Below the pieces are notes generated by a model that saw nothing but the letters and a program-made list of their open reading frames with translations, was not told the DNA's origin and ran no database searches. A stretch of 32,059 nucleotides of DNA from Hyphomonadaceae bacterium. GTDB taxonomy: Bacteria > Pseudomonadota > Alphaproteobacteria > Caulobacterales > Aquidulcibacteraceae. A program made the position numbers and the translations under genes. The stretch lies in NCBI GenBank assembly GCA_021299265.1, contig JAJTGP010000018.1:1-32059 (forward strand), given 5' to 3'. This document shows, piece by piece, positions 3,363 through 32,059 of the stretch (position 1 is the stretch's first letter; the number at the start of each line of letters is the position of its first letter).

Positions 3363-3525
3363 AAAGAGCACATAGGCAATGTTGCGTCCGATTGAACAGC
3401 CCAAATGTATTTGCTGGCAAGCCTTGATGCACAATTGTCAGGAAACATGCATATAGCGCTCGCAAAATCATGTGCCGCACCAACCGAGTCGCGTGCACGT
3501 GTCAGAACGGCTTAAGGAGCAGGGC

Positions 3526-4080
3526 ATGAGCAAACTGAAATCTGTCTGTGTCTATTGTGGTTCTTCCAACCTTGTGGACCCAGCTTACCTTGAGCTTGCC
3601 ACCCTGATGGGCCAAGCAATTGCTAAGCGCGGCATTCGCCTCGTCTATGGCGGCGGCAATGTCGGCCTGATGGGCGCTTCCTCCCGGGCGGCCCATGAAG
3701 CCGGTGGCGAAGTCTTGGGGATCATGCCGCACTTTTTGACCAAATGGGAAAAACCCAATCCAGCTTTTGAAACGCGGATGGTGGAGACCATGCACGAGCG
3801 TAAATGGGGCCTGTTTGCAGAATCCGACGCTTTCATCGTTCTGCCCGGCGGCATCGGCACCTTGGAAGAAGTGGTTGAGACCCTGTCGTGGCAACGCCTC
3901 GAACTCCACTGCAAGCCCGTTGTGTTCGTTGGGCGGGCGTTCTGGCAACCCTTTGTCGATCTGATTGAGGCAACCATTGTCACCAAATTCACGCCCGAGG
4001 CGTTCCGCAATTCCTTCTTTTGCGTGGACACACCAGAAGAAGCGTTGGATGGTTTAGCCGCCGCTCAAAGCAAGGCTTAA
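3526..4080 (+). CDS. LOG family protein, cytokinin riboside 5'-monophosphate phosphoribohydrolase type
   Basis: A 184-residue cytoplasmic protein of the LOG (Lonely guy) family, Rossmann-fold enzymes that split nucleoside 5'-monophosphates into base and ribose phosphate. It shows the start SVCVYCGSSN, the loop YGGGNVGLMG (about 41-50), and the family signature PGGIGTLEE (107-115), preceded by METMHERKWGL. ATG at 3526 follows AAGGAG at 3514-3519 with six bases between, while the frame open back to 3472 adds 18 unlike residues. Length and motifs are standard for bacterial LOG proteins. The real substrate (cytokinin or a general nucleotide such as AMP) cannot be read from the sequence. Divergent from the Atm1-type exporter. 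Confidence 0.93.
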   Translation: MSKLKSVCVYCGSSNLVDPAYLELATLMGQAIAKRGIRLVYGGGNVGLMGASSRAAHEAGGEVLGIMPHFLTKWEKPNPAFETRMVETMHERKWGLFAESDAFIVLPGGIGTLEEVVETLSWQRLELHCKPVVFVGRAFWQPFVDLIEATIVTKFTPEAFRNSFFCVDTPEEALDGLAAAQSKA

Positions 4081-4604
4081 CGCCCCTCTTACCGCAGTCG
4101 AAATCCGCCGCTTTTGGACGTCGCCAGAACATGGCGCGCCGGCCTTCGCGAGCGTGCTCAGCCACGGCCAAACTATCCCGCGAAAATCAGAAATACGTTA
4201 AAGTAAATTTGAGTATATTTTTCCTACATTGCGATTCAATTTTACCACAAATAAACTTAAAATTTTATATTATGCAATTTACAGGGGAAATTGGCGAATT
4301 TTTAACGTCTAAGGCATTGAATTTATGATTATTTTAATCGTTAACTGTAATTGAATATTTATTTCGAATTTGATTCGTTTTATTCTTTGTACAGCAACAA
4401 AGTAAACACATTACTTTTTGGTATAAAGACCAAGTCAATCCTTAAAATGCCCTCCTTTGCGGGGTGCTTGAAAAGGGTGATCTGGAACAAAGCCAAGCGA
4501 TCTTTCTAGGGCCATGAATGGCTCGCCTGAGGTCGAAAGGGGTGTGTGATCTTGGGAGCATGAGCGCCAGCCGCAAAGCAGCTGGAGAATGAGGCTGTGG
4601 GTTG
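4081..4604. other. AT-rich gap upstream of the TetR array
   Basis: No gene is supported over these 524 bases. From about 4190 to 4440 the composition turns strongly AT-rich, unlike the rest of the window, which suits a promoter/operator region or a junction of acquired DNA. It contains two perfect inverted repeats: CGAAT-TTG-ATTCG (4365-4377) and AAAGTAA-ACACA-TTACTTT (4399-4417), the latter just before a TATAAA at 4422-4427. No clear -35/-10 pair with standard spacing was found. Confidence 0.6.
4399..4417. promoter_or_regulatory. Candidate operator palindrome upstream of the TetR array
   Basis: AAAGTAA-ACACA-TTACTTT is a perfect 7-5-7 inverted repeat, a size and symmetry typical of TetR-family operators. 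It lies four bases before a TATAAA (4422-4427) that could serve as a -10. It is about 190 bases upstream of the first unit. The same sequence was not found by eye before the other three ORFs. Low confidence, since AT-rich DNA yields palindromes by chance. Confidence 0.3.
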
Positions 4605-5399
4605 ATGAAGATGGAAAATTTTACCTTCAAGCTAAGTGAGGCTGAGAGCCTTGGCGGATCCGTCGCTGTTTCTCCCGGCCACGCCTCCGACGGCGGACTG
4701 TTTTTCGAGAACAAGATTCGACGCTACCTCAAGGCTGCCGTGCGCCGTCATGATACTGCGGCCCGCCTCTACCGTACGCTTGCAAGTGTTTTGCAGGAAT
4801 GGACCGAGGTCGGCTATTTAAAGGGACAAGTGTCCAGCATCGCCAATCGGGCCGGCATGTCGACGGCAACCCTTTACCGCGACTTCCCGGACAAATCTTT
4901 TCTATTTTGCGAGGCCCTCAAATTTGGGCAGGCAATCCTGATTGAAGCGCTTTCGACTTATCCTAAGCACCCAAACCCAATCCTGGATTTGACAGGCATG
5001 CTGTGCAACCACGCAGAAACGCTCGCCCAGCCCGCCCCCCAGCAAATGTTGCTGGCTCAACGCTTGATGCTACTGGAGCCTGAATTGCAAAGCGCCGTCA
5101 GTGCGATTGCCGCCGAGAGTCATGAAAAGCTGAAACAGGTTTGGCACGAAAAAATCCAAGAGCTAATCTCGAGCGATTGGATCAAGATCGACCACTTAGA
5201 ATGGCAACGTTGTCGCCTCGTTGGCGCTTTAGAGGCGCGGACCTTTGGTTGGTTCATGATGGGCCATGCGCCGCGTAGCCCGGCCATTAGCTGGGAGCAC
5301 GATGCACACCAAGTCGTGCAAGATTTCTTCAGGCTCTATGGCACCGAGAAATTTGAAGAACATCGTCGCCTCTATAATTGGGATTGGGGGCTGGTGTGA
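4605..5399 (+). CDS. TetR-like regulator, single unit (A1) of the array
   Basis: A single-unit protein of 264 residues. After a poorly conserved lead of about 35 residues comes the A-type block RRHDTAARLYRTLASVLQEW, then the TetR helix-turn-helix SSIANRAGMSTATLYRDFPDK (about 77-97), then an all-helical ligand-type domain ending in LYGTEKFEEHRRLYNWDWG. ATG at 4605 is chosen with GAGG at 4591-4594; TTG at 4602 and ATG at 4611 are alternatives. It is the only stand-alone unit of the eight. Its stop codon overlaps the GTG start of the next ORF as GTGA, so the two are probably made together, in place of the covalent A-B fusion seen in the later pairs. Ligand and target genes are unknown. Confidence 0.88.
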   Translation: MKMENFTFKLSEAESLGGSVAVSPGHASDGGLFFENKIRRYLKAAVRRHDTAARLYRTLASVLQEWTEVGYLKGQVSSIANRAGMSTATLYRDFPDKSFLFCEALKFGQAILIEALSTYPKHPNPILDLTGMLCNHAETLAQPAPQQMLLAQRLMLLEPELQSAVSAIAAESHEKLKQVWHEKIQELISSDWIKIDHLEWQRCRLVGALEARTFGWFMMGHAPRSPAISWEHDAHQVVQDFFRLYGTEKFEEHRRLYNWDWGLV

Positions 5400-7873
5400 C
5401 CGCCTCGCAAGAGCCGAAGGATGTTGATGCTTTCATCCTGCAACAGCTTGAACTTATGCTCTCTCAGAAAGGCAATCGCCTAGATCCGACCTTTCGCCGA
5501 GAGCGGATTGCGGCGGCCGTCCATTTCGAAACGCTTTCCAAAAACTACACCCAATTAAGTGCGCCGGCAGTTGCTAAGCGCGCGGGCGTCTCAACCGCGA
5601 CGCTTTACCGACTATTTCCTGATGATAATGCCCTCTATGAAGCGGGTTTTTTTCTTGGGGTCCAACAATATCTCGCGTGGCTGTCCTATGATTTCGACCA
5701 CCCGAATCCCCTGCTTCGGCTAGCGACTTTGCTAGATCGCCGCGTTCAAGTCTGGACGCGGCCAAAGGCGATGGAAGCACTGTCGCCACTATACTACATA
5801 ATCGGTGCTCGAGACCCAAATTTGAGCGCCCAAGCGACTCCCTATCTCAAGCATTCGTCAGACTTCTGGCTCGCACAGTTCAATAAGCTAAAGACTGAGG
5901 GCTATCTCGATCTCGAGACTGATTGGAATTTGCTCGAGATCTTTTGGGGACCGATTGAAAGCCTACTCTTCTATCCAACGGTCCTAACCGACCTGCCCTA
6001 TATCTCGGAAACTTCTAAATTTGAAGATTGCTGGCGGGCGGTCGACGACTTTCTGACTCTCTATGGAACACCCCATTTTCAAAAAAATCGTGAAAAGCTC
6101 AATTGGGATGCCGAATTGGCGGCATTTCGAACCGCAAAATCAGTATCAGGACCTTGCGATGATCAGCCTTTATCTTTCTATTCAGCTCAATCGCTTGTTC
6201 AACCATCTGGCTGGGCGGACAGAGGAAGCGCTCAAACGAGGCTAGCAATGAATGCTCCCTTTCCCCGTGCAGAACAGCCTCCCTGTTTCGAGCAACAGAT
6301 TCGCAACCAATTGTCGGTGCGGGTTCGCCGCCATGATGATGGTACGCGCTCTTATCTGATCCTCGCGGCTGTCCTTCAGGAATGGGCGGAAGTCGGCCTC
6401 TTAAGCGCCCAAATGACAACCATTGCAGCGCGCGCCAAGGTTTCAACCGCGACGCTCTACCGCCTGTTTCCGAACCGCGAGGAGATGCATCTAGAAGCTT
6501 TAGCGCTCGGCCAACAATTGCTGGTCGAGGCGATGAAGGAATGCCAGCAGCATCCTAATCCGGTGCGCGATTTGCTGGAAATGGCCCAGCACTATGCCGC
6601 TGTCCTGCGAGAGCCCTATTTCAAGCAATTCTCGCTCAGCCAAACCTTTTTGGTCCGAATGGATTCTAGCGTCAAAGAACAGGCCAGCATCATTGCCGTA
6701 GCGGGCTATGCTGGGCTTATTCAATGCTGGCAGGAACGGCTGCAAAACTTAGTTGATGAAGGTTTTCTGAAACCTGCCTCAATCAACCATATGATTTTCC
6801 GATTAATCGGCCCGATCGAAGCCCGCACCCTGCATTGGCACCAGAGCGGCCGCGGCACCTATGTTCCTGACAAGGGGTGGCTTCACGAGGTCGCGACGAT
6901 TGTTGAAGCCTTCTTCGAGATTTACGGCACGAAAAAGTACCAAACAGCGTGTCAGACCCTAGGGTGGGACTGGTCCAGCTTTGCCGCTGCCACCCCCTCA
7001 CCGCAACCTGAACCAACCCAAGCGCCTGATGCCACGCTCGAGAGCAAAGGGCTTTTGCAGCTAGAGTCCCTAGAGCGCGCGATCGCTGAGGGGCCATTGC
7101 CCGCTGACTTTATCGCGTTTGTTGAGGGACAGCACACGCACATGCTGGCCCATGGTAGCAATCGCCTCGATACCAGCGACCGTTACTTGCGGATCGTCGC
7201 GGCGACTTTGTATGAAAATTATCGCGTCGGCTATGAACAGATTAGCATGGCCGGCATCGCCAAGCGCGCCGGCGTTTCGACCAAAACCTTGTACCGGACC
7301 TTTCCCGACGATCTCAACCTCTATCAAGAGGCCCATAGCTTAGGTTTAGCCTTCTTTAGCGCTTGGCTGTCGCGCGATGTGGAAGAGGCAAACCCGATAA
7401 AGCGCATGGCGGACTATCTTAAAATCGCTGTCGACACCTATTTGGACACCCGCAGCCTGCAGGTCAGCTCAATCCAATTTGGCCTCTTGGCCGATCAAGG
7501 GCGCGAGACAAGGCTTCACACGTCAAATTTCATCAAAAGCTATATTTTCGCCTTTTGGTCTCGTCGATTTAGTCGCCTTAAGGCGGAAGGCTACCTTCAA
7601 GGCGAGATTGACTGGGCCATGATCCACGCCCTGTATGGGCCTATTCAGAGCCTGTCTTGGGGACATAAGAGCAACCTAGGAGCCACGCCTGAGCCCGAAG
7701 GCAGCTGGGCCGAGGCCTGCTGGCACATTGCCGAAGACTTCTTCGTCATTTATGGCACCCCGCAATTCCACGTCAAGCGAAAGGCATTAGGCTGGGACGC
7801 GGCCGAGGAGCCAGAACCCGACACCAACTCATCCAATGAAGTCATGGCTGCGGTTCGGACAAATGAAATTTAG
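5396..7873 (+). CDS. Triple-unit TetR-like fusion (B1-A2-B2)
   Basis: About 825 residues with three TetR units in one chain. HTH cores lie near residues 57-77 (VAKRAGVSTATLYRLFPDD, B1), 342-361 (IAARAKVSTATLYRLFPNR, A2) and 621-640 (IAKRAGVSTKTLYRTFPDD, B2; the third variable residue is Lys rather than Ala). Each is followed by a helical domain closing with YGTPHF..., YGTKKY... or YGTPQF... and a WD. B units carry NRLD before the HTH; the A unit carries RRHD...LQEW. GTG at 5396 is chosen: it overlaps the preceding TGA as GTGA and has GGGGG at 5386-5390; a TTG at 5378 is the longer option. The B1-A2 linker (about 245-290) is low in conservation, like translated intergenic DNA, and contains an ATG at 6248 with its own Shine-Dalgarno. 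Such triple fusions are uncommon in this family, which normally has about 200 residues. Confidence 0.85.
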   Translation: MTASQEPKDVDAFILQQLELMLSQKGNRLDPTFRRERIAAAVHFETLSKNYTQLSAPAVAKRAGVSTATLYRLFPDDNALYEAGFFLGVQQYLAWLSYDFDHPNPLLRLATLLDRRVQVWTRPKAMEALSPLYYIIGARDPNLSAQATPYLKHSSDFWLAQFNKLKTEGYLDLETDWNLLEIFWGPIESLLFYPTVLTDLPYISETSKFEDCWRAVDDFLTLYGTPHFQKNREKLNWDAELAAFRTAKSVSGPCDDQPLSFYSAQSLVQPSGWADRGSAQTRLAMNAPFPRAEQPPCFEQQIRNQLSVRVRRHDDGTRSYLILAAVLQEWAEVGLLSAQMTTIAARAKVSTATLYRLFPNREEMHLEALALGQQLLVEAMKECQQHPNPVRDLLEMAQHYAAVLREPYFKQFSLSQTFLVRMDSSVKEQASIIAVAGYAGLIQCWQERLQNLVDEGFLKPASINHMIFRLIGPIEARTLHWHQSGRGTYVPDKGWLHEVATIVEAFFEIYGTKKYQTACQTLGWDWSSFAAATPSPQPEPTQAPDATLESKGLLQLESLERAIAEGPLPADFIAFVEGQHTHMLAHGSNRLDTSDRYLRIVAATLYENYRVGYEQISMAGIAKRAGVSTKTLYRTFPDDLNLYQEAHSLGLAFFSAWLSRDVEEANPIKRMADYLKIAVDTYLDTRSLQVSSIQFGLLADQGRETRLHTSNFIKSYIFAFWSRRFSRLKAEGYLQGEIDWAMIHALYGPIQSLSWGHKSNLGATPEPEGSWAEACWHIAEDFFVIYGTPQFHVKRKALGWDAAEEPEPDTNSSNEVMAAVRTNEI
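6237..6250 (+). promoter_or_regulatory. Possible internal ribosome binding site and start (A2-B2)
   Basis: GAGG (6238-6241) is followed six bases later by an in-frame ATG at 6248, exactly at the border between the unconserved B1-A2 linker and the A2 unit. It could be the relic of an independent start from before B1 and A2 fused, or still allow a separate A2-B2 protein of about 541 residues. Inferred from spacing and position only. Confidence 0.35.
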
Positions 7874-7966
7874 ATATCGCTTAGCGAAAACACGGAGCTA
7901 GGCATTTGTGGGATTTGTGGAACAAACTTCACGCATGAAAAACAACGGTTTCTAGGCGCTAAAACG

Positions 7967-9553
7967 ATGGATATTCGCACCCAGCCTGCACCAAGGCGGT
8001 TGAAATTTGACGAGAGAATACAAGCGCTTTTGCTACACCATGCCAAGCGCCAAGATGATATCACGCGCAAACAACGCGTTTGCGCAAGCCAATTGATAGA
8101 GTGGGTCAGTTTTGGACTGGCCGCCACAAATATGGCACGAATTGCGGAACGGGCAGGCGTTTCAACGGCTACACTTTATCGTCTGTACCCTGACCGAAAT
8201 AATCTGACGGTTGATGCTCTGAAACTCGGCAACAACGTCCTTCTCGAGACCATTCAGGAAGCGCCGCGCCATCCCCACCCTTTCCGCGATTTGGTAGAGA
8301 TTGTCGACCACCTCTTAGCGATCTACCGAGAGTCCAGCGTGCTCATGCTCTGGCACACGCAAGCTTTCATCCTACAAAGTGAGACAGAAACATTTGCTGA
8401 CGTCCAAAATAATTCAGCCTTATTCATTCAAGAACTACAAGAATTCTTTTTCAATATAATTGATCGGTTAGTTTCGGACGGATTTATTCAAGATAACAAT
8501 CGATTGAGCATGTTCTTACGAATTCAGGGAGCGATTGAGGACAAGACGGTTGAATGGCAGGGGCGATTTAAAGTGCCATTTCAACCCGTCGTCAGTTGGT
8601 CTGAGGAGGCGGTGAAAATCGCCGAAGAGTTCTTCATTGTCCATGGCACAGCTAAGTTTAGAGCCTTGCGGCAGCAGGACCAAGTTGCTTGGTTGGATGG
8701 CAAAAGCCTGCAGAAAAAAGCGCTGGAGCCGGTGGATGAAACAAGGCTTCAGGCGTCGATTGATCGCCAGCTCCCCTTTTTGAGAGACGTCGAAGCTTCG
8801 TTACGTGCCAAGCCTAGGCCTGCGACGACGGACGCATTCATCTGGCAAGAATTAGAGAGATTCATGTCCAAAAGCGGCAATAGGTTAGACGCCAGCAATC
8901 GGCGCAGCCGCATTGTGGCTTCCGCCATTGTGGTCAATTACTCGCAAGGCTTCCAAAACGTGAATATGGCAGCAGTGGCCAAGCAGGCGGGTGTTTCGAC
9001 GGCCACTCTCTATCGTCTTTATCCCGATGACAGAGCCCTTTACGAGGCCGCGCATGGGCTAGGGACCAGTTTTTATATGGCGTGGCTGGCACAGGAATCC
9101 ACGTCCCCAAACCCCCTTGTGCAATTTTGCGAATACACCTCGATTTCAATTGAAACGTTCCTTGACCCGCGCGTCAAAAACGCCATCTCGATGGGGGCAT
9201 TCACCAATGCGCTGCAGCAATTGGACGAACATCTCAGCATCGGCGACTTGATTGTTATTTATACGAATATGCTTTGGCGAAAGCGCTTCGCGAGACTCTT
9301 GGAGGAAGGCTTCATTGACCAACCGCCGAGTTGGGACATGCTGCACGCGCTGCAAGGCACGACCTCGGCCATTAACGGCCTCTATCTGAGGCACGGCATC
9401 CAGCTTCAACCAAATGGGTCATGGTTCGCCGAATGCCGGACTGTCGTCGACGAATTCTTCCAGATCTATGGCACCCCTCATTTCCATGCGATGCGCAAAA
9501 AAATGAATTGGGACGAGGATTTGGCGCTCTATAAGCCGGGCGAAGTCTCGTGA
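7967..9553 (+). CDS. Double-unit TetR-like fusion (A3-B3)
   Basis: A 528-residue chain with two TetR units. Unit A3 has AKRQDD...ASQLIEWVSFG and the HTH ARIAERAGVSTATLYRLYPDR (57-77), its C-terminal domain ending in VHGTAKFRALR. A linker of about 60 residues containing LPFLRDVEASLRAKP leads to unit B3 with SGNRLDASNRRSRI, HTH AAVAKQAGVSTATLYRLYPDD (335-355), and the closing IYGTPHFHAMRKKMNWDED. It is colinear over its whole length with the next ORF, the HTH motifs sitting at identical residue numbers, so the two arose by duplication of an A-B gene. ATG at 7967 has only a weak upstream AGG. A 93-base gap separates it from the triple fusion. Functionally a single-chain pseudo-dimer is likely; target unknown. 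Confidence 0.87.
   Translation: MDIRTQPAPRRLKFDERIQALLLHHAKRQDDITRKQRVCASQLIEWVSFGLAATNMARIAERAGVSTATLYRLYPDRNNLTVDALKLGNNVLLETIQEAPRHPHPFRDLVEIVDHLLAIYRESSVLMLWHTQAFILQSETETFADVQNNSALFIQELQEFFFNIIDRLVSDGFIQDNNRLSMFLRIQGAIEDKTVEWQGRFKVPFQPVVSWSEEAVKIAEEFFIVHGTAKFRALRQQDQVAWLDGKSLQKKALEPVDETRLQASIDRQLPFLRDVEASLRAKPRPATTDAFIWQELERFMSKSGNRLDASNRRSRIVASAIVVNYSQGFQNVNMAAVAKQAGVSTATLYRLYPDDRALYEAAHGLGTSFYMAWLAQESTSPNPLVQFCEYTSISIETFLDPRVKNAISMGAFTNALQQLDEHLSIGDLIVIYTNMLWRKRFARLLEEGFIDQPPSWDMLHALQGTTSAINGLYLRHGIQLQPNGSWFAECRTVVDEFFQIYGTPHFHAMRKKMNWDEDLALYKPGEVS
9452..9498 (+). repeat. 47-bp near-identical repeat (copy 1), end of A3-B3
   Basis: This stretch matches 11168-11214 at the end of the A4-B4 ORF with a single C/T difference. 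It encodes EFFQIYGTPHFHAMRK. Third codon positions are also the same, which exceeds what the rest of these paralogues show, and suggests recent gene conversion or local constraint. Confidence 0.8.
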
Positions 9554-9682
9554 AGTCAGGTCCTTGATCACAGCGCAGCAATGTTGCGCCATTGACCAAT
9601 TAGACTACTGAACCAGTCGGTAGACAGCGGTATCGATTGAACATAGCCTCCAATCGAAATCGGCTATTTCTCGGACTTACTG

Positions 9683-11266
9683 ATGGAAACGCATCTTCAG
9701 TCAAATGTCGCCGGACCACACTTTAAAGGTAAAGTCCGCACCCTCTTGGCAACACAAGCCAAGCGGCAAGATGATGAGGCGCGTAAGAGTTTGGTCTGCG
9801 CGAGCGAGTTAGAAGAGTGGCTGGAAGTTGGGTTCAACGCGGCAAATGTTGCGCGGATTGCTGATCGTGCTGGTGTCTCTACCGCAACTCTGTATCGGCT
9901 TTACCCAGATCGTAACAAACTGAACTTGGACACGTTGGAGATCGGCAATCAGATCGTGTGGGAAATCGTTCAAGATGCACCACAACATCCCCATCCATTT
10001 CGTAACTTGGTCGAACTCACCCATCACATTGCTTCACTTTGGCAACAATCCAGCGTTCAGATGTTTTTCCATACGCAAGGCTATATCTTGCAAACGGAGA
10101 CCGAGATTACCGCGGACGCCCGAGCCATTGCGACAAAGTTTGGCGAAAAATTCAGAAAACTTATTGATTTGGTCTTCGATCATTTGGTCGTGGATGGCTT
10201 TTTGGAAGACCGTAACCGCCAAGCCATGTTCTATCGGCTGATTGGTCCGATTGAAATAAAAACAAGGGGTTGGGCTGGCGATCATGGTATACCGTTTAAG
10301 CCAGCAACAAGCTGGTACGACGAAGCCATCAAAATTGTTGAAGAATTTTTCTGCTTCTATGGAACCGCCAAATTTAAGTCTATTCGACAGCAGTCGAGTA
10401 TCGCGCCCCTAGATGGACATCGCCTGCCAAAGACACCAGTTAAGGAGATCGACCATGCGAAATTGTATGCGGATTTGGACCGAGACCTTCCATTTCTGAG
10501 AGACTTAGAAGACTTCCTAGCCTCAAATCCTGAACCCGCTAACGCGGCCGAATTCATGTGGCAGGTCTTGCAGCGCCTTTTAACCAAAAGCCCCAATCGA
10601 TTGGACGTGACCAATCGTCAGAACCGAATTGTGGCCTCGGCGGCGATTGTTACTTACACGCAGGGCTTTCGTAACCTAAGCATGGCGCGGGTGGCCAAAC
10701 AGGCGGGTGTCTCTACCGCGACACTTTACCGTTTGTACCCCACAGACCGCGAGCTTTATAAGGCCGCCTATGGCTTAGGTCTCAGCATTTATTTGGCTTG
10801 GCTCGCGCGGGAAAGCCGAGCCTCCAATCCATTGGCCCAGTTTACCCAATATGCCTCCTTCTATGTCGAGACCTTTATGGATGGACGGGCCAGAAACGCC
10901 CGATCAATGGACCAACTGCGCGCAGAGCCATCGCAAATTGATATGATGCAACGTTACAGCGAACTCAGAGTCCAGCACCACAGCTTGCTTTGGCAAGAGC
11001 GCTTTTCCAAGCTTCAGGCGGATGGCTATATCAAGGAACCGGCAAGCTGGGACATGATCCACACCTTGATTGGACCGGGCATTCTTATCGCTGGATTACA
11101 ACTCCGGGCAGGCATCCGGTTGGAACCTCAAAGATCTTGGTTTGAAGAGTGTTGGGGCTTCGCCGATGAATTCTTCCAGATCTATGGCACTCCTCATTTC
11201 CATGCGATGCGCAAGAAAATGAGGTGGGATGACGCTTTAGAAGCCTATCGCGCCAATTCGATTTAA
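9683..11266 (+). CDS. Double-unit TetR-like fusion (A4-B4)
   Basis: A 527-residue paralogue of the preceding A3-B3 protein. Unit A4: AKRQDDEARKSLVCASELEEW, HTH ARIADRAGVSTATLYRLYPDR (57-77), closing in FYGTAKFKSIR. The linker keeps LPFLRDLEDFLASNP. Unit B4: SPNRLDVTNRQNRI, HTH ARVAKQAGVSTATLYRLYPTD (335-355), closing in IYGTPHFHAMRKKMRWDD. Several YxxG and FF/W-rich helices shape the presumed ligand pocket. ATG at 9683 has no strong Shine-Dalgarno. The 129-base gap before it shows no gene. The stop TAA (11264-11266) interlocks with the stop of gltX on the other strand, leaving no room for a terminator. Near its 3' end 47 bases differ from A3-B3 at one position only. Confidence 0.87.
   Translation: METHLQSNVAGPHFKGKVRTLLATQAKRQDDEARKSLVCASELEEWLEVGFNAANVARIADRAGVSTATLYRLYPDRNKLNLDTLEIGNQIVWEIVQDAPQHPHPFRNLVELTHHIASLWQQSSVQMFFHTQGYILQTETEITADARAIATKFGEKFRKLIDLVFDHLVVDGFLEDRNRQAMFYRLIGPIEIKTRGWAGDHGIPFKPATSWYDEAIKIVEEFFCFYGTAKFKSIRQQSSIAPLDGHRLPKTPVKEIDHAKLYADLDRDLPFLRDLEDFLASNPEPANAAEFMWQVLQRLLTKSPNRLDVTNRQNRIVASAAIVTYTQGFRNLSMARVAKQAGVSTATLYRLYPTDRELYKAAYGLGLSIYLAWLARESRASNPLAQFTQYASFYVETFMDGRARNARSMDQLRAEPSQIDMMQRYSELRVQHHSLLWQERFSKLQADGYIKEPASWDMIHTLIGPGILIAGLQLRAGIRLEPQRSWFEECWGFADEFFQIYGTPHFHAMRKKMRWDDALEAYRANSI
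11168..11214 (+). repeat. 47-bp near-identical repeat (copy 2), end of A4-B4
   Basis: Second copy of the sequence at 9452-9498, in the same position of the paralogous ORF, with one mismatch. A pair of direct repeats 1.7 kb apart could support recombination that deletes or duplicates one A-B gene. Confidence 0.8.
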
Positions 11267-12597
11267 GAAACTTTGCCCGATAAGCGGCTTGCCGCGCGCT
11301 CAGGGCCGATCAGCATAAAGATCAACTTCATCTCTGGCCCATGCTCTTTGCCCGTCAGCGCCTTGCGCAAGGGCATGAACAGGCCTTTGCCTTTGGCACC
11401 AGTTGCGGCCTTCACCGCCTCGGTAAAGCCTGACCAAGAGGTCTCATCATAAGGCCCAGCTGGCAAAAGGCCCGCCGCCGTGGCGATGAAGTCCGGCTCG
11501 TCAATTTGTGGCTCAATCGGGCCTTGGACGACGCGTGCCCACAGCGCCACATCATCAAACTTCGCGAGATTACCGCGCACTGCCAGCCAGAAAGCTTCCC
11601 CCAGATCGCACTCAATCGCGGCAAGGCGCGGCTTGATCACCGCATAGTCCGCATGTTGCAGCAATTGCGCATCTAGACGGCGGACATCTTCAGGGTCAAA
11701 GCGGGCTGGCGCACGGCCGATCTTGCCAAAGTCAAAGCCCGCCACCAGAGCGTCCAAATTATCAACCGCCTCAACCGGGTCAGAGGTGCCGATCCGCGCC
11801 ATCAAGGATAGGACCGCCAAGGGCGCTACCCCCTGCTCGCGCAGGCTTTCAACCGACAGAGAGCCGATACGCTTCGACAAGGTCTCGCCATCCGCGCCCA
11901 CCAACAGCGGGAAGTGGCCAAATTCAGGGCGGGTGCCGCCGGTTAGCGCTTCAAAGATTTCTGCCTGTGCGCCGGTATTGGTCACATGGTCTTCACCCCG
12001 TATCACATGCGTCACGCCCAAATCCACATCGTCCACGACCGATGGCAGCGTATAGAGATAAGCGCCATCTTCGCGGATCAACACGGGGTCAGACATAGAG
12101 GCCGTATCCACCGTTTGCTCGCCGCGGATCAAATCTTGCCAAGCAACGCGCTTGCCCGAGAGCTTAAAGCGCCAATGCGGCTTGCGCCCTTCGGCTTCAA
12201 AAGCGGCCTTTTCAGCGTCCGTTAGGGCAAGGGCCGCGCGGTCATAGACCGGGGGCAATTTTCGCGACAAAGCGATCTTGCGCTTGCGGTCTAATTCTTC
12301 GGACGTCTCATAACAGGGATAGAGCAGGCCAGCTGCGATCAGCCGATCCCGCGCCTTGTCATACACGTCAAAGCGGGCCGATTGGCGCGCCTCTTCATCC
12401 CAGGTCAGGCCCAGCCACGTCAGGTCCATCCGGATCCCGTCTTCATAGGCTTGGGTGGAGCGCGCCGTATCGGTGTCGTCAATGCGCAACAGGAAGGTGC
12501 CGCGATGTTGGCGCACAAACAACCAATTGCGCAATGCGGTGATCACATTGCCGACGTGGAGCTTGCCGGTGGGCGAAGGTGCAAATCTGACTTTCAT
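11263..12597 (-). CDS. gltX: Glutamate--tRNA ligase
   Basis: A 444-residue class I aminoacyl-tRNA synthetase that charges tRNA with glutamate. The start MKVRFAPSPTGKLHVGN contains the HIGH box as HVGN (14-17); IDDTDTARS follows at 39-47; THVIRGEDHVTNT (196-208) is the conserved tRNA-acceptor region; the KMSKS loop is LSKR at 240-243. The size is on the short side for GluRS. Alphaproteobacteria often carry two gltX genes and make Gln-tRNA by amidation of Glu-tRNA(Gln), so this copy could serve either tRNA; that cannot be decided here. It is divergent from lexA, with two LexA boxes in the 220-base gap, and its stop codon interlocks with that of the last TetR-like ORF. Confidence 0.95.
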   Translation of the reverse strand: MKVRFAPSPTGKLHVGNVITALRNWLFVRQHRGTFLLRIDDTDTARSTQAYEDGIRMDLTWLGLTWDEEARQSARFDVYDKARDRLIAAGLLYPCYETSEELDRKRKIALSRKLPPVYDRAALALTDAEKAAFEAEGRKPHWRFKLSGKRVAWQDLIRGEQTVDTASMSDPVLIREDGAYLYTLPSVVDDVDLGVTHVIRGEDHVTNTGAQAEIFEALTGGTRPEFGHFPLLVGADGETLSKRIGSLSVESLREQGVAPLAVLSLMARIGTSDPVEAVDNLDALVAGFDFGKIGRAPARFDPEDVRRLDAQLLQHADYAVIKPRLAAIECDLGEAFWLAVRGNLAKFDDVALWARVVQGPIEPQIDEPDFIATAAGLLPAGPYDETSWSGFTEAVKAATGAKGKGLFMPLRKALTGKEHGPEMKLIFMLIGPERAASRLSGKVS

Positions 12598-27658: not shown

Positions 27659-28411
27659 TTAGCCAAAGAACACATCCCCGGCCGTCACTTCGTGGATCGT
27701 GCCATCGGGCTGTTCCAATTGCAGCGCACCGCTGGGTGCGAGGCCATGAAAGCGGCCTTCCAGTGTCTCGTGCGGCAAGCGCACGATGATAGGTTGGCCA
27801 ACGCCGGAAGCCCGTGCCAGCCAAGCCCCTGCAATCGGGGCAAAGCCCAGTTTCGCCCAAATGTCGAACCAGTCGTGAAAGCGCGCCCGCAAGCCCTCAA
27901 ACAGGATTTCCGCGCTGACTTGTGGCATCCCTGTTAGAACATGATCCGTGACACAGGTGATGGGCTGATCAATGCCATCCGGGCTGGTACGCACATTCAC
28001 GCCAATGCCGACTGCCAAGTGAAACCCATAAGGCCCCTGCCAGCTTTCCAACAAAATGCCGCTGGTTTTCTTGCCTGCGATCAACACGTCATTCGGCCAC
28101 TTAAGGCTGACAGCACCTTGGGCCACATGCGGGTCGATGGCTTCAGCCACGGCCAAGGCGGCGACAAAGGACAGATTGGCGGCCTCCGCTGGCCCACAAC
28201 TCAACGTAAAAAGGCCTGTTGTGAACAGATTGCCGGGCTCGCCCAGCCACGTCCGACCACGCCGCCCCCTGCCCTTTGTCTGTTCGAGGCTACGCACCCA
28301 CAAGGGGCCAGTCTCGCCGCCTTCGCTCAGACGGCGTGCTTCGTCATTGGTGGAATCTATCGTGTCATAGAGCCGGACGTCGCCCAGCCCGCCCCCTCGG
28401 CTTGGCCTCAA
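27659..28411 (-). CDS. birA: Biotin--protein ligase (BirA, catalytic form without HTH)
   Basis: About 250 residues, the short form that lacks the N-terminal repressor domain of E. coli BirA. It makes biotinyl-AMP and attaches biotin to the carrier domain of acetyl-CoA and related carboxylases. The motif KGRGRRGRTW (46-55) is the biotinyl-AMP binding loop, KWPNDVLIAGKKTSGIL (104-120) carries the active-site lysine, and GIGVNV completes the site. No ATG exists near the 5' end; the likely start is a TTG at 28411 that overlaps the nuoN stop as TTGA. Being fused to the nuo operon end is typical for alphaproteobacteria. Confidence 0.94.
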   Translation of the reverse strand: MRPSRGGGLGDVRLYDTIDSTNDEARRLSEGGETGPLWVRSLEQTKGRGRRGRTWLGEPGNLFTTGLFTLSCGPAEAANLSFVAALAVAEAIDPHVAQGAVSLKWPNDVLIAGKKTSGILLESWQGPYGFHLAVGIGVNVRTSPDGIDQPITCVTDHVLTGMPQVSAEILFEGLRARFHDWFDIWAKLGFAPIAGAWLARASGVGQPIIVRLPHETLEGRFHGLAPSGALQLEQPDGTIHEVTAGDVFFG

Positions 28412-29886
28412 TGGAAGCCAGCCCCAGCGATGCTGGCGGCAGAGCCGACAAGGCCGATCACCAAGGTCAAAGCCGCCAAGACAAAGGTCGCCCCGGTCAG
28501 CGTCAAAGTGGTGGACGCGCCAACTGGCACCATGGCAATGCGCGGCTCGTCAAACCAAACGGTCTTGATGATGCGCAGATAATAGAAGGCCGAGACTACC
28601 GACGCCAAGATCAGGACAATGGCGAGCGGTAAAAGCCCCGACGCACTGGTCGCCAAGATCACTTCCCACTTCCCGAAGAAGCCTGCTAAAGGCGGGATCC
28701 CCATGACTGAGAATAACAGCATGGTCAAAGCCGAAGCCAAAAGCGGGTTGGACCGCGAGAGGCCCGACAGTGCGGAAATGGTCTCCACCCGTTCGCCTTC
28801 AGTGTTGCGCAAGGAGAGCACGACGCCAAACAGGCCAACCGAAGTGATGGCATAAATGGAAACAAAGACCAGAAGCGCCTTTGGCCCAAACTCTGGCCCG
28901 CAAGCAATCGCGACCAGCGCATAGCCCATGTTCGCGATGGAAGAATAGGCAAGCAGGCGCTTGATATTGGTCTGCTGCAGCGCGAACAAAGCGCCAATCG
29001 CCATGGACAGGACGGCCATGATCACGACGATGCCCAGCCAATCCTTTTGGAGAGGGCCAAAGGCTTCAAAGCAGACGCGGGCAAACAGAACTGAGGCCGC
29101 AACCTTCGGCGCAGAAGCAAAGAAGGCGGTCGAAACCGTGGGCGAGCCTTCGTACACATCGGGCGTCCACATATGGAATGGGGCTGCCGACATCTTAAAC
29201 GCCAGACCACACAGGATGAAGACGAGGCCAAAGACGACTCCGATGGAGCGCTCGCCAGCCACTTGGGCAGCGATCACGTCGAAATTGACTGAACCGGTAA
29301 AGCCGTAGACGAGCGAGCAGCCGTAGAGCAAAAGGCCAGACGACAAAGCACCGAGCACGAAATATTTGAGGCCAGCTTCAGAGCTTCTGGCGTCATCCCG
29401 GGCATAGGCTGCGAGCACATAAAGCGCCAAGGATTGCATCTCAACGCCGACATAAAGCGCGATCAAATCATGGGCGGAGACCATGATGAACATGCCCAAG
29501 GTCGCAAGAAGTGCCAAAACCGGAAACTCTGGCTTATCGAGCTTTTTCTCGGCCAAGAAGTCGATGGAGAGCAAAAGCGCACTACTGGCGGTCAAGGCAA
29601 TGATCAGCTTGGCATAGGCGGAAAAACCGTCTGCCGCATAGGAACCAGAAAAGACCACCACTTGCTCTGGCGGCATATGAAGGACAGCCATAGAGCCAGC
29701 AGCCACAATGGTGGCAACGCACAGCCAAGTGACCAAGCGGGCACCCTTATCGCCCATGAAGGCACCGATCAGCATGATGATCAAAGCCCCCGCTGCGAGG
29801 GTGATCTCCGGCAGGATATAGGGAACCTGCTGGAAGAAGAGCTCTGCTGTCATGGTTTGGTTGATGGCCATTACCGCACCGGTCAC
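28408..29886 (-). CDS. nuoN: NADH-quinone oxidoreductase subunit N
   Basis: A 492-residue antiporter-like membrane subunit of respiratory complex I with about 14 transmembrane helices. The proton-channel signature is seen in [18 protein letters not shown] and in the region [16 protein letters not shown], with the family's conserved lysines and a Glu in [12 protein letters not shown]. It contributes to proton pumping coupled to NADH oxidation. The GTG at 29886 overlaps the nuoM stop as GTGA; ATG at 29871 and 29853 are later options. Neither has a strong Shine-Dalgarno, so coupling from nuoM seems likely. Followed by birA with another four-base overlap. Confidence 0.95.
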
Positions 29887-31373
29887 TTAAAGTTGGCGTG
29901 GAAGGCGTCCACGAGCGCAACGGCAGAAGTCGCCGTCTGGTCAAAGATGAGGTTGGGTTGGAAGCCCAAATAAAGCGCCGCCACGACCAAAGGCACGAAA
30001 ATCAAGATCTCGCGCGCATTCATGTCGGTGATCGTGTTCAGCGCCGGATTGACGATCGTGCCAAAAATCACCTTGCGATAGAGCGTCAACATATAGGCCG
30101 CCGACAAGATCACGCCGCTGGCAGCCACCATCGCCGTCACGGGGTCTACATTGAATGCGCCCTGCATGGTGAGGATTTCGCCGACAAAACCCGACGTGCC
30201 CGGTAAGCCGACATTGCCCATGGTGAAGAGCAAAAACACCGCCGCATAAATCGGCATGCGGTTCACAAGGCCACCATATTGGGCGATCTCGCGGGTATGC
30301 ATGCGGTCATAGATGACACCGACGCAGAGGAACAACGCGCCCGAAATCACGCCATGGCTGAGCATTTGGAACAAAGCGCCTTGGATGCCCTGCTCATTGC
30401 CCGAGAAAATCCCCATGGTGACAAAGCCCATGTGGGCGACCGAAGAATAAGCAATCAGCTTTTTGATGTCGGTCTGACGGAAAGCGACCAGCGAGGTGTA
30501 GACAATCGCAATGCCTGACAGAGCAAACACAAAGGGTGCGAAGTCGTTGGAGGCTTCGGGGAACATGGGCAAGGAGAAGCGCAGGAAGCCATAGCCGCCC
30601 ATCTTCAACAATACCCCTGCCAGAATGACAGAACCTGCCGTCGGCGCTTCCACGTGGGCATCCGGCAACCAAGTGTGGACCGGCCACATCGGCATTTTGA
30701 CAGCGAAGGAGGCAAAGAAGGCCAACCACAGCCAGGTCTGGGCGTCCTTGGCAAATTCAAAGGCTTGCAGGTCGGGGATCGAGGTCGTCTTGGCGGTGAT
30801 CGCCATCCACGCAATCGCGATCAGCAAGAAGAGCGAGCCCAAAAGCGTATAGAGGAAGAATTTGTAAGCCGCATAAACGCGGTTCTTCCCGCCCCAAATC
30901 CCGATGATCAGATACATCGGGATCAGGCCAGCTTCGAAGAAGATATAGAAGAGCACGATATCAAGCGCGCAGAACACGCCGATCATCAGCGTCTGCAATA
31001 GCAAGAAGGCCGCCATATATTCGACGACGCGCTTCTCAATCGAGGTCCAACTGGCCAAGATGCACAAGGGCATCAAGAAAGCGGTCAACAGGATCAAGAG
31101 CACCGAAATGCCGTCAATGCCCAGATGATATTGGATCATGCCATACCAATCGGCCCGCTCTACGAATTGATAGCCGGATTTGGTTTCGTCAAACGCCAAG
31201 GTCATCCATAGCGCTAAGCCGAACACGATAACGGTCGTAACCAAGGCAATCCAGCGGGCCGCATTGGCGCGCGCGGCCTCTGGGCTCTTAATGAGCTGGG
31301 GCAAAAACAGGATCAGGACGGCCGCCACAGCGGGCAGCCACGTGAGGATCGAGAGGATGGGCAGCGTGTCCAT
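29883..31373 (-). CDS. nuoM: NADH-quinone oxidoreductase subunit M
   Basis: A 496-residue membrane subunit of complex I, one of the three antiporter-like proton channels. It starts [18 protein letters not shown]. The conserved features are [36 protein letters not shown] (channel Glu), [40 protein letters not shown] and [23 protein letters not shown] at 31373 has GAGG six bases upstream and lies seven bases after nuoL; a frame open to 31412 runs back into nuoL. Length and hydrophobic profile are standard. Confidence 0.96.
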
Positions 31374-31380
31374 GATAGCC

Positions 31381-32059
31381 TCAGGCACCCCGGAATAGAA
31401 CAAAAGCGCCAAGCGCGACCGCCGCGATCAGCATCAAAAAGGCATAGTGATAGACATAGCCCGACTGGATTTTGACGGCTTTCTTCGAACCAAAATTCAA
31501 AGCTGCGGCAATACCATTGGGTCCAAGCCCGTCGATCAGCTTGCCGTCACCGATTTTCCAAAAGAAGTCGCCCAGCGCGCGGGCACCCTTCACAAAGACG
31601 ATCTCATAGAGCTCGTCGAAATACCATTTGTTCTCCAAGAAGGCGTGCGCCATGCCCTTGCGGTCGGCGATCTTCTTACCCAAGCCCTCATTGAACAGAT
31701 AGAAATAGAGGGCAGCCGCAAGGCCAATCAACATCACAACCAAAGGTGCATAGAAGACCCAGCCTGGGATGGAATATTTGTCTTTCAGGACTGTATTGTC
31801 TGGCGCGGTATAGATAGAGCTGCCCCAGAATTCCTTGGCATGATGGCCAACAAAGGCATCATAGAAAATCGAACCCGCAAACACGGCACCCAAGGCCAGA
31901 AGCACCAGCGGGATCAACATCACCAGCGGGCTTTCATGCGGGCCATGCCACGCATGGTGACCAAGGCCGTCATCATGGCTGCCAGCCGCATCGCTACCGA
32001 CTTCACCGACATGGGCAACCGCAGGCAGGCCATGGGCATGGGCGGCATCGCTATGGCCA
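31381..32059 (-). CDS. nuoL: NADH-quinone oxidoreductase subunit L, C-terminal part (runs off the window)
   Basis: The last 225 or so codons of the largest complex I antiporter-like subunit. The frame is open to the window edge, with a His/Gly/Asp-rich loop ([12 protein letters not shown]..., [17 protein letters not shown]) that is common before the last helices of alphaproteobacterial NuoL. Then follow a membrane helix ([17 protein letters not shown]), the segment [43 protein letters not shown] that is diagnostic for NuoL and lies along the long lateral helix, and a last helix. The N-terminal two thirds lie outside the window. A GTG at 31921-31923 is internal, not a start. Confidence 0.95.

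Follow-up and report, generated by a model that had tools for sequence, protein, structure and literature searches.

Eight TetR-like units of two types, A and B, stand in strict alternation at one locus of the window (the whole 32,059-nucleotide stretch of DNA that was analysed, from a member of the genus Aquidulcibacter). Judged from the sequences of nine genomes of the genus, the locus expanded and shrank largely by whole A-B pairs, and the pair is the main unit of its evolution. The mechanism that explains the array best, and to which we give somewhat better than an even chance, is one of A:B heterodimeric TetR regulators whose partners would be coupled (pair 1) or built into a single chain (pairs 2–4).

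Layout and genomic place of the array

Searches with the profile of the TetR N-terminal domain (TetR_N, PF00440; curated cut-off of 24 bits) found eight separate domains above the cut-off, distributed 1+3+2+2 over the four ORFs between positions 4602 and 11266 (Table 1), and a profile scan of the whole genome gave the identical eight places, all above. These domain counts, together with the phylogeny described below, confirmed the order A1 / B1-A2-B2 / A3-B3 / A4-B4 put forward in the sequence-only reading, and motifs named in that reading were recovered: the HTH motif in each of the eight units (STATLYR in seven, STKTLYR in B2), NRLD in the four even units, R(H/Q)D and EW in the four odd units, and (H/Y)GT..(F/Y) close to the C-terminus in all eight. 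Units are ∼240 residues long and the linkers between fused units ∼40 residues. Among the C-terminal TetR families of Pfam, none was listed for the array ORFs at E-values up to 1, and none of the NCBIfam TetR models listed reached its own cut-off on them. The genome holds 33 TetR_N matches in total; because the remaining 25 all sit in open frames of ≤239 aa, multi-unit TetR chains are seen only at the array in this draft genome.

Table 1. Coordinates of the array and its surroundings in the window.
Feature	Position	Strand	Basis
LOG/lysine-decarboxylase-like gene (PF03641), upstream neighbour	3472..4080	+	syntenic boundary
Conserved AT-rich noncoding element upstream of A1	4193..4432	+	single copy; identity across 5 species
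Candidate operator AAAGTAA-N5-TTACTTT, 19-bp palindrome	4399..4417	.	core conserved; function putative
A1, single TetR unit	4602..5399	+	PF00440, E 1.9e-07; dN/dS 0.15 vs G003
B1-A2-B2, triple TetR ORF, 825 aa	5396..7873	+	three PF00440 stretches; reading of the junction
Unit B1	5411..6121	+	B clade
TCA codon, fusion point, where B1 of G003 has a TAA stop	6146..6148	+	aligned junctions
Unit A2	6263..6982	+	tree placement
Unit B2	7097..7810	+	tree placement
A3-B3, double TetR ORF	7967..9553	+	two PF00440 stretches (A3 7982-8701, B3 8816-9526)
A4-B4, double TetR ORF	9683..11266	+	two PF00440 stretches (A4 9698-10417, B4 10532-11242)
Glutamyl-tRNA synthetase family gene (PF00749), gltX, downstream neighbour	11263..12597	-	syntenic boundary

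A1 has three possible starts (TTG 4602, ATG 4605 or ATG 4611). The second ORF as listed (5378-7873) begins with TTG 5378; its true start is more plausibly GTG 5396, which would share 4 bp (GTGA) with the end of the A1 gene and is preferred because relatives show a 4-bp overlap at this place.

Pairwise identity among the eight units of the window is 21–57% over about 240 residues, with values of 21–28% between A and B, 30–50% among A units and 34–57% among B units. Pairs 3 and 4 are the most similar (50% for A, 57% for B), and the A3-B3 and A4-B4 chains are 53% identical. Nei-Gojobori estimates (own script, covering A1, B1 and A2-B2) between the window's genome (G000) and G003 gave dN/dS ratios of 0.15, 0.075 and 0.17, respectively; purifying selection acts on all three. 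Given this shared identity and the dN/dS range of 0.075–0.17, a chance origin of the array is implausible. No tandem DNA repeats were reported by a program that covers periods up to 500 bases and could therefore not detect units of ∼720 bases; how old the units are is judged from their divergence. In the same comparison with G003 (window 4602-7870), dS was uneven along the array (A1 0.59, B1 0.83, A2-B2 0.21), which may point to recombination inside it.

Array units were found in all nine Aquidulcibacter genomes, the window's included, at one locus that has the LOG-like gene before it wherever the contig covers that side (all but G005) and gltX and lexA after it. With a profile of the A-B unit (E ≤ 1e-10), hits came from 20/398 genomes in a sample of the order, 11/385 in one of the class and 7/398 in one of the phylum; these samples overlap, each include the window's genome and had at most three candidates scored per genome. 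End-to-end matches over both halves were confined to the genus (8/9 genomes), G006 having a split pair only. G011 and G013, from two further genera of the family, carry long TetR ORFs of their own, with two TetR_N stretches in G011, and in G013 one by Pfam and a second by the unit profile alone (E 9.3e-11). A TetR-like HTH was also seen in a 657-aa open frame of a genome of the same class (L091, G810:C1671:8506-8676). Elsewhere in the window, an AT skew of 0.24–0.28 over 28001-32000 coincides with minus-strand genes for NADH dehydrogenase membrane proteins (the C-terminus of subunit 5 and two Proton_antipo_M proteins) and is ordinary.

Duplication, fusion and loss by pairs

Phylogenetic analysis of 43 rows, comprising 39 array units (21 A, 18 B) from the nine genus genomes and four outgroup halves from G011 and G013, recovered the two clades expected from the sequence-only reading, with support of 98/97 on the A branch and 99/98 on the B branch; the tree program warned that long branches meet at the A/B split. 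All four outgroup halves fell outside both clades, and for two of them fewer than one third of the alignment columns were filled. On the A side and again on the B side, the units group as pair 1, pair 2 and pairs 3/4, the branching order among these three being weakly supported, and the A and B distance matrices correlate at r = 0.925 (18 pairs; none of 2000 shuffles as high). Since distances and groups mirror each other, whole pairs appear to have been duplicated together. Copy number varies in the genus: eight units in G000, five in G001, four in G002, six in G003, four in G004, two each in G005 and G006, and four each in G007 and G008. In G005 the contig edge lies close in front of the A-B gene, and the count there may be too low, any further units perhaps lying beyond that edge.

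Amplification from an ancestral A-B gene had been proposed, and the A-B pair is indeed the unit of duplication; the ancestor, however, need not have been fused. Pair 1 consists of two separate, overlapping ORFs in seven genomes, and a linker resembling LPxLxxLE is common to pairs 2–4 in the alignment but differs in the fused pair of G005; a fused ancestor is therefore not required. With starts inferred and the start codon nearest the overlap taken in each case, A1 and B1 overlap by 4 bp in six of the seven genomes (ATGA in G002, G006, G007 and G008; GTGA in G000 and G003) and by 14 bp in G001. Short gene overlaps of this sort usually mean translational coupling, so the arrangement would suit subunits of one complex. 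Pairs other than pair 1 are fused, except where B2 has been lost (G001, G004) and where a TGA interrupts A3-B3 (G004).

The triple ORF is present in the window's genome, as had been read, but was seen in none of the other eight, and the closest relative has B1 and A2-B2 as separate ORFs. At the G003 junction a lone TAA stands between B1 and a leader that is in frame with A2-B2; the codon at this place in the window is TCA. Across the 33 aligned codons of this former leader the two genomes differ by one synonymous and four nonsynonymous changes, which, set against the constrained A1, B1 and A2-B2, makes the triple look recent and its linker free of protein-level constraint. The triple thus probably reflects either the recent loss of a stop codon or an error of one base. 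That it is an error of sequencing or assembly, the real order being A1 / B1 / A2-B2 / A3-B3 / A4-B4 (that of the closest relative except for the number of pairs), is a possibility that we hold to be less likely than not. The two states differ by a single codon, the genome is a 310-contig draft, the triple occurs in one genome of nine and the linker bears no sign of protein-level selection; against this, the surrounding sequence shows no damage, 825 codons stay open, and selection on B1 and A2-B2 is purifying. This reading concerns the triple alone and is compatible with the other readings of the array.

Loss of B partners was accompanied by change in the recognition helix. The B partner is missing from the array for A2 of G001 and for A1 and A2 of G004, and no other B unit that could partner them was found in those two genomes. 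None of the three partnerless A units keeps an intact helix (TPATLER in G001 A2, STASLYQ in G004 A1, TSATLDR in G004 A2), whereas the motif is kept in 35 of 36 paired units, the exception (STATLCR) belonging to the TGA-broken gene of G004. Fisher's exact test on this comparison gives p = 4e-4, a post hoc value for a motif set after looking and for two or three events at most in two sister genomes. G004 A1 is 59.6, 61.8 and 56.4% identical to three relatives, compared with 65.7, 68.0 and 61.5% for A1 of its sister G001. The array of G004 has lost B1 and B2, and its A3-B3 carries an in-frame TGA. G004 A1 (L040 12177-13007) has at its end what looks like the remains of a B1 C-terminus, as though the two genes had been joined by a deletion between them.

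Predicted structure and likeness to Mce3R

AlphaFold2 (AF2) prediction of A3-B3 from nine alignment rows gave a best model with pLDDT 86.4 and pTM 0.86, the five models spanning mean pLDDT values of 63.3–86.4 with two of them poor (66.1, 63.3). The model is almost wholly helical, and its A half (residues 28-228) matches single TetR chains with Z up to 19.5. Prediction of the triple was weaker (pLDDT 68.9, pTM 0.56), with three TetR-like series of helices joined by low-confidence linkers.

The top Foldseek match of the A3-B3 model was Mce3R of Mycobacterium tuberculosis (PDB 9b7y; E 2.1e-05), which likewise combines two unlike TetR units, both equipped with an HTH, in a single polypeptide. VIA-align superposed residues 27-503 of the model on 9b7y over 362/385 residues with Z 15.2 and an rmsd of 6.9, a value that does not fix how the A half is oriented towards the B half. 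Among the matches listed, 9b7y alone aligned over more than 200 residues; one other, of 185 residues, spanned both halves. In a profile search of solved structures 9b7y was again best, with a match confined to one HTH (profile positions 310-376).

The report of the Mce3R structure (PMC11667970) describes a single-chain, asymmetric TetR-family regulator (TFR) that binds a non-palindromic site and pairs within the chain, its whole chains also homodimerising; it presents Mce3R as the first structure of a double TFR, an infrequent class with 204 members predicted in actinomycetes. The double-TFR layout of two TetR units in one polypeptide is that of A3-B3, A4-B4 and, inside the triple, A2-B2. The gene mce3R is a single one, upstream of the mce3 operon that Mce3R represses (PMC11667970), while the array comprises four pairs, of which one is split and another is part of the triple chain, has no recognised target and belongs to a different phylum. 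The Mce3R operator is described there as non-palindromic; the candidate site upstream of A1 is palindromic, but it lies at the promoter of the split pair. Engineered sc-TetR and sc-rtTA, in which two linked TetR units fold intramolecularly and which were meant to avoid mixing with other TetR variants (PMC1797012), are artificial and built from copies of one TetR; the units of the array are natural and divergent (A vs B 21–28%). KstR, RutR and FadR, homodimeric repressors, share an N-terminal TetR_N and a helical C-terminal domain with the array units but are single units of ∼200 residues. The suggestion that each chain is a built-in heterodimer gains a precedent in Mce3R (PMC11667970) and is compatible with the pTM of 0.86 and with the helix decay; heterodimerisation itself we infer.

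The upstream element and readings of the array

The LOG-like gene and A1 are separated by ∼520 bp, in which lies a ∼240-bp AT-rich element with identity of 0.53–0.83 (mean pairwise in 20-column blocks, five species, gaps counted as mismatches). Identity beside it is about 0.2–0.5; the A1 coding sequence reaches 0.60 and gltX 0.82, gaps being left out for these two. Of 61 genomes searched, eight gave a match to the element; all eight belong to the genus, and in G002 the match was only partial; the contig of G005 starts too near its A-B gene to show it. Shuffling tests (eight sequences, 60 column shuffles) gave no signal of RNA structure in the element (z of +0.23 and -1.0 by strand), and Rfam at the gathering threshold returned a tRNA alone in the whole window. 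Its 25-base word GTTAACTGTAATTGAATATTTATTT (window 4340-4364) is exact in six of the eight genomes with the element (G000, G001, G003, G004, G007, G008) and contains a TTAA-N7-TGAA spacing that may recall a CtrA-type box.

At the 3' end of the element, the palindrome core AAGTAA-N5-TTACTT is kept in seven of the eight genomes with the region, G002 lacking it. Matches to the palindrome with up to three mismatches are expected 0.56 times in the window by chance, so that what is informative is that the palindrome is conserved at this position. Elsewhere, each of seven genomes has one more conserved site, and two have a third. The second site, AAGTAAGTCACTTACTT (L114 1501-1517; also L109, L110, L111, L113, L115 and L116, L113 differing at one base), overlaps the stop codon in a gene for a small Ala/Val/Thr-rich protein that is followed by a hairpin we read as terminator-like, and the third class sits at the end of a gene read as aldolase-like. 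Because they lie at a stop codon or gene end, these sites were rejected as operators. A regulon search with the 19-bp palindrome (up to two mismatches) gave 48 sites in nine genomes vs 52 for the reversed control. The near-constant recognition helix had been taken to suggest related operators. The helix is more uniform in the array than in other TetR proteins, among which STATLYR occurs in 1 and STATLY in 5 of 26 helices parsed out of 38 proteins (a set biased to the nearest TetR hits, with two of the 26, AYRAALH, possibly misparsed), but no shared regulon emerged, and related operators are weakly suggested.

Under the heterodimer mechanism, A1 and B1 would be two translationally coupled chains that pair with each other, and A2-B2, A3-B3 and A4-B4 single chains whose halves fold back on each other as a built-in heterodimer, which would bring two non-identical HTHs to one operator without mixing of pairs. 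B1 of the window, tethered to A2-B2 by loss of the stop codon, could still partner the separate A1. The array would probably be autorepressed, its proteins acting at sites within the conserved element before A1, with a ligand in the C-terminal domain releasing repression; autoregulation is argued from position alone, since no target gene was found. More tentatively, and with well under an even chance, paralogous heterodimers may avoid cross-pairing through fusion of the later pairs while the first pair stays two coupled genes, and the triple would be a three-headed protein that recruits A1 into a two-operator complex.

TetR proteins normally homodimerise, and to our knowledge obligate TetR heterodimers have rarely been described. 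The mirror correlation of 0.925, the A1/B1 overlap, the helix decay, the AF2 pTM of 0.86 and the match to Mce3R speak for heterodimers here, and the conserved upstream element with its palindrome for the mechanism as a whole. On the other side stand the poor AF2 models, the homodimerisation of whole Mce3R chains, the post hoc nature of the decay test, the absence of the palindrome from G002 and the palindromic form of the candidate operator, for which a symmetric homodimer is at least as good a fit. That form also favours an alternative we consider unlikely, in which a fused chain dimerises with its own copy through like halves (A to A, B to B), so that a complex has two symmetric heads for DNA binding and two sensors, the A-B alternation being duplication history only. 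It would follow the norm of the family, and linkers of ∼40 residues would permit it. However, Mce3R, with the same layout, is reported to pair within the chain (PMC11667970). Moreover, A and B mostly travel in pairs and co-diverge, and the HTH decayed in A copies left without a B.

Least probable in our view, and markedly so, is a non-classical role in which the proteins bind DNA at the upstream element or for chromosome organisation rather than as ligand-sensing repressors. SlmA is a TetR-family protein whose DNA binding is of the chromosome-organising kind; here, neither a regulon nor an obvious neighbouring target was found, and the AT-rich element exceeds the A1 gene in conservation. Yet a conserved element before the first gene is most simply a promoter, and SlmA is just one of many NCBIfam TetR models matched, all below cut-off. 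We retain the A:B heterodimer as the preferred mechanism.

Double TetR proteins are already known; the paired array with its amplification in pairs, the split and fused series, and the triple are new variants. Neither a triple TetR chain nor a paired array was among the literature matches listed for multi-unit TetR proteins, a coverage that leaves most subscription papers outside. The evolution of regulators raises the general question of what keeps paralogous dimers from mixing, and the array offers, in a freshwater bacterium, a natural series for how paired regulators become single molecules. Because one genus holds split, fused, triple and decayed partnerless copies, variants found in nature are available for testing pairing specificity and what fusion does.
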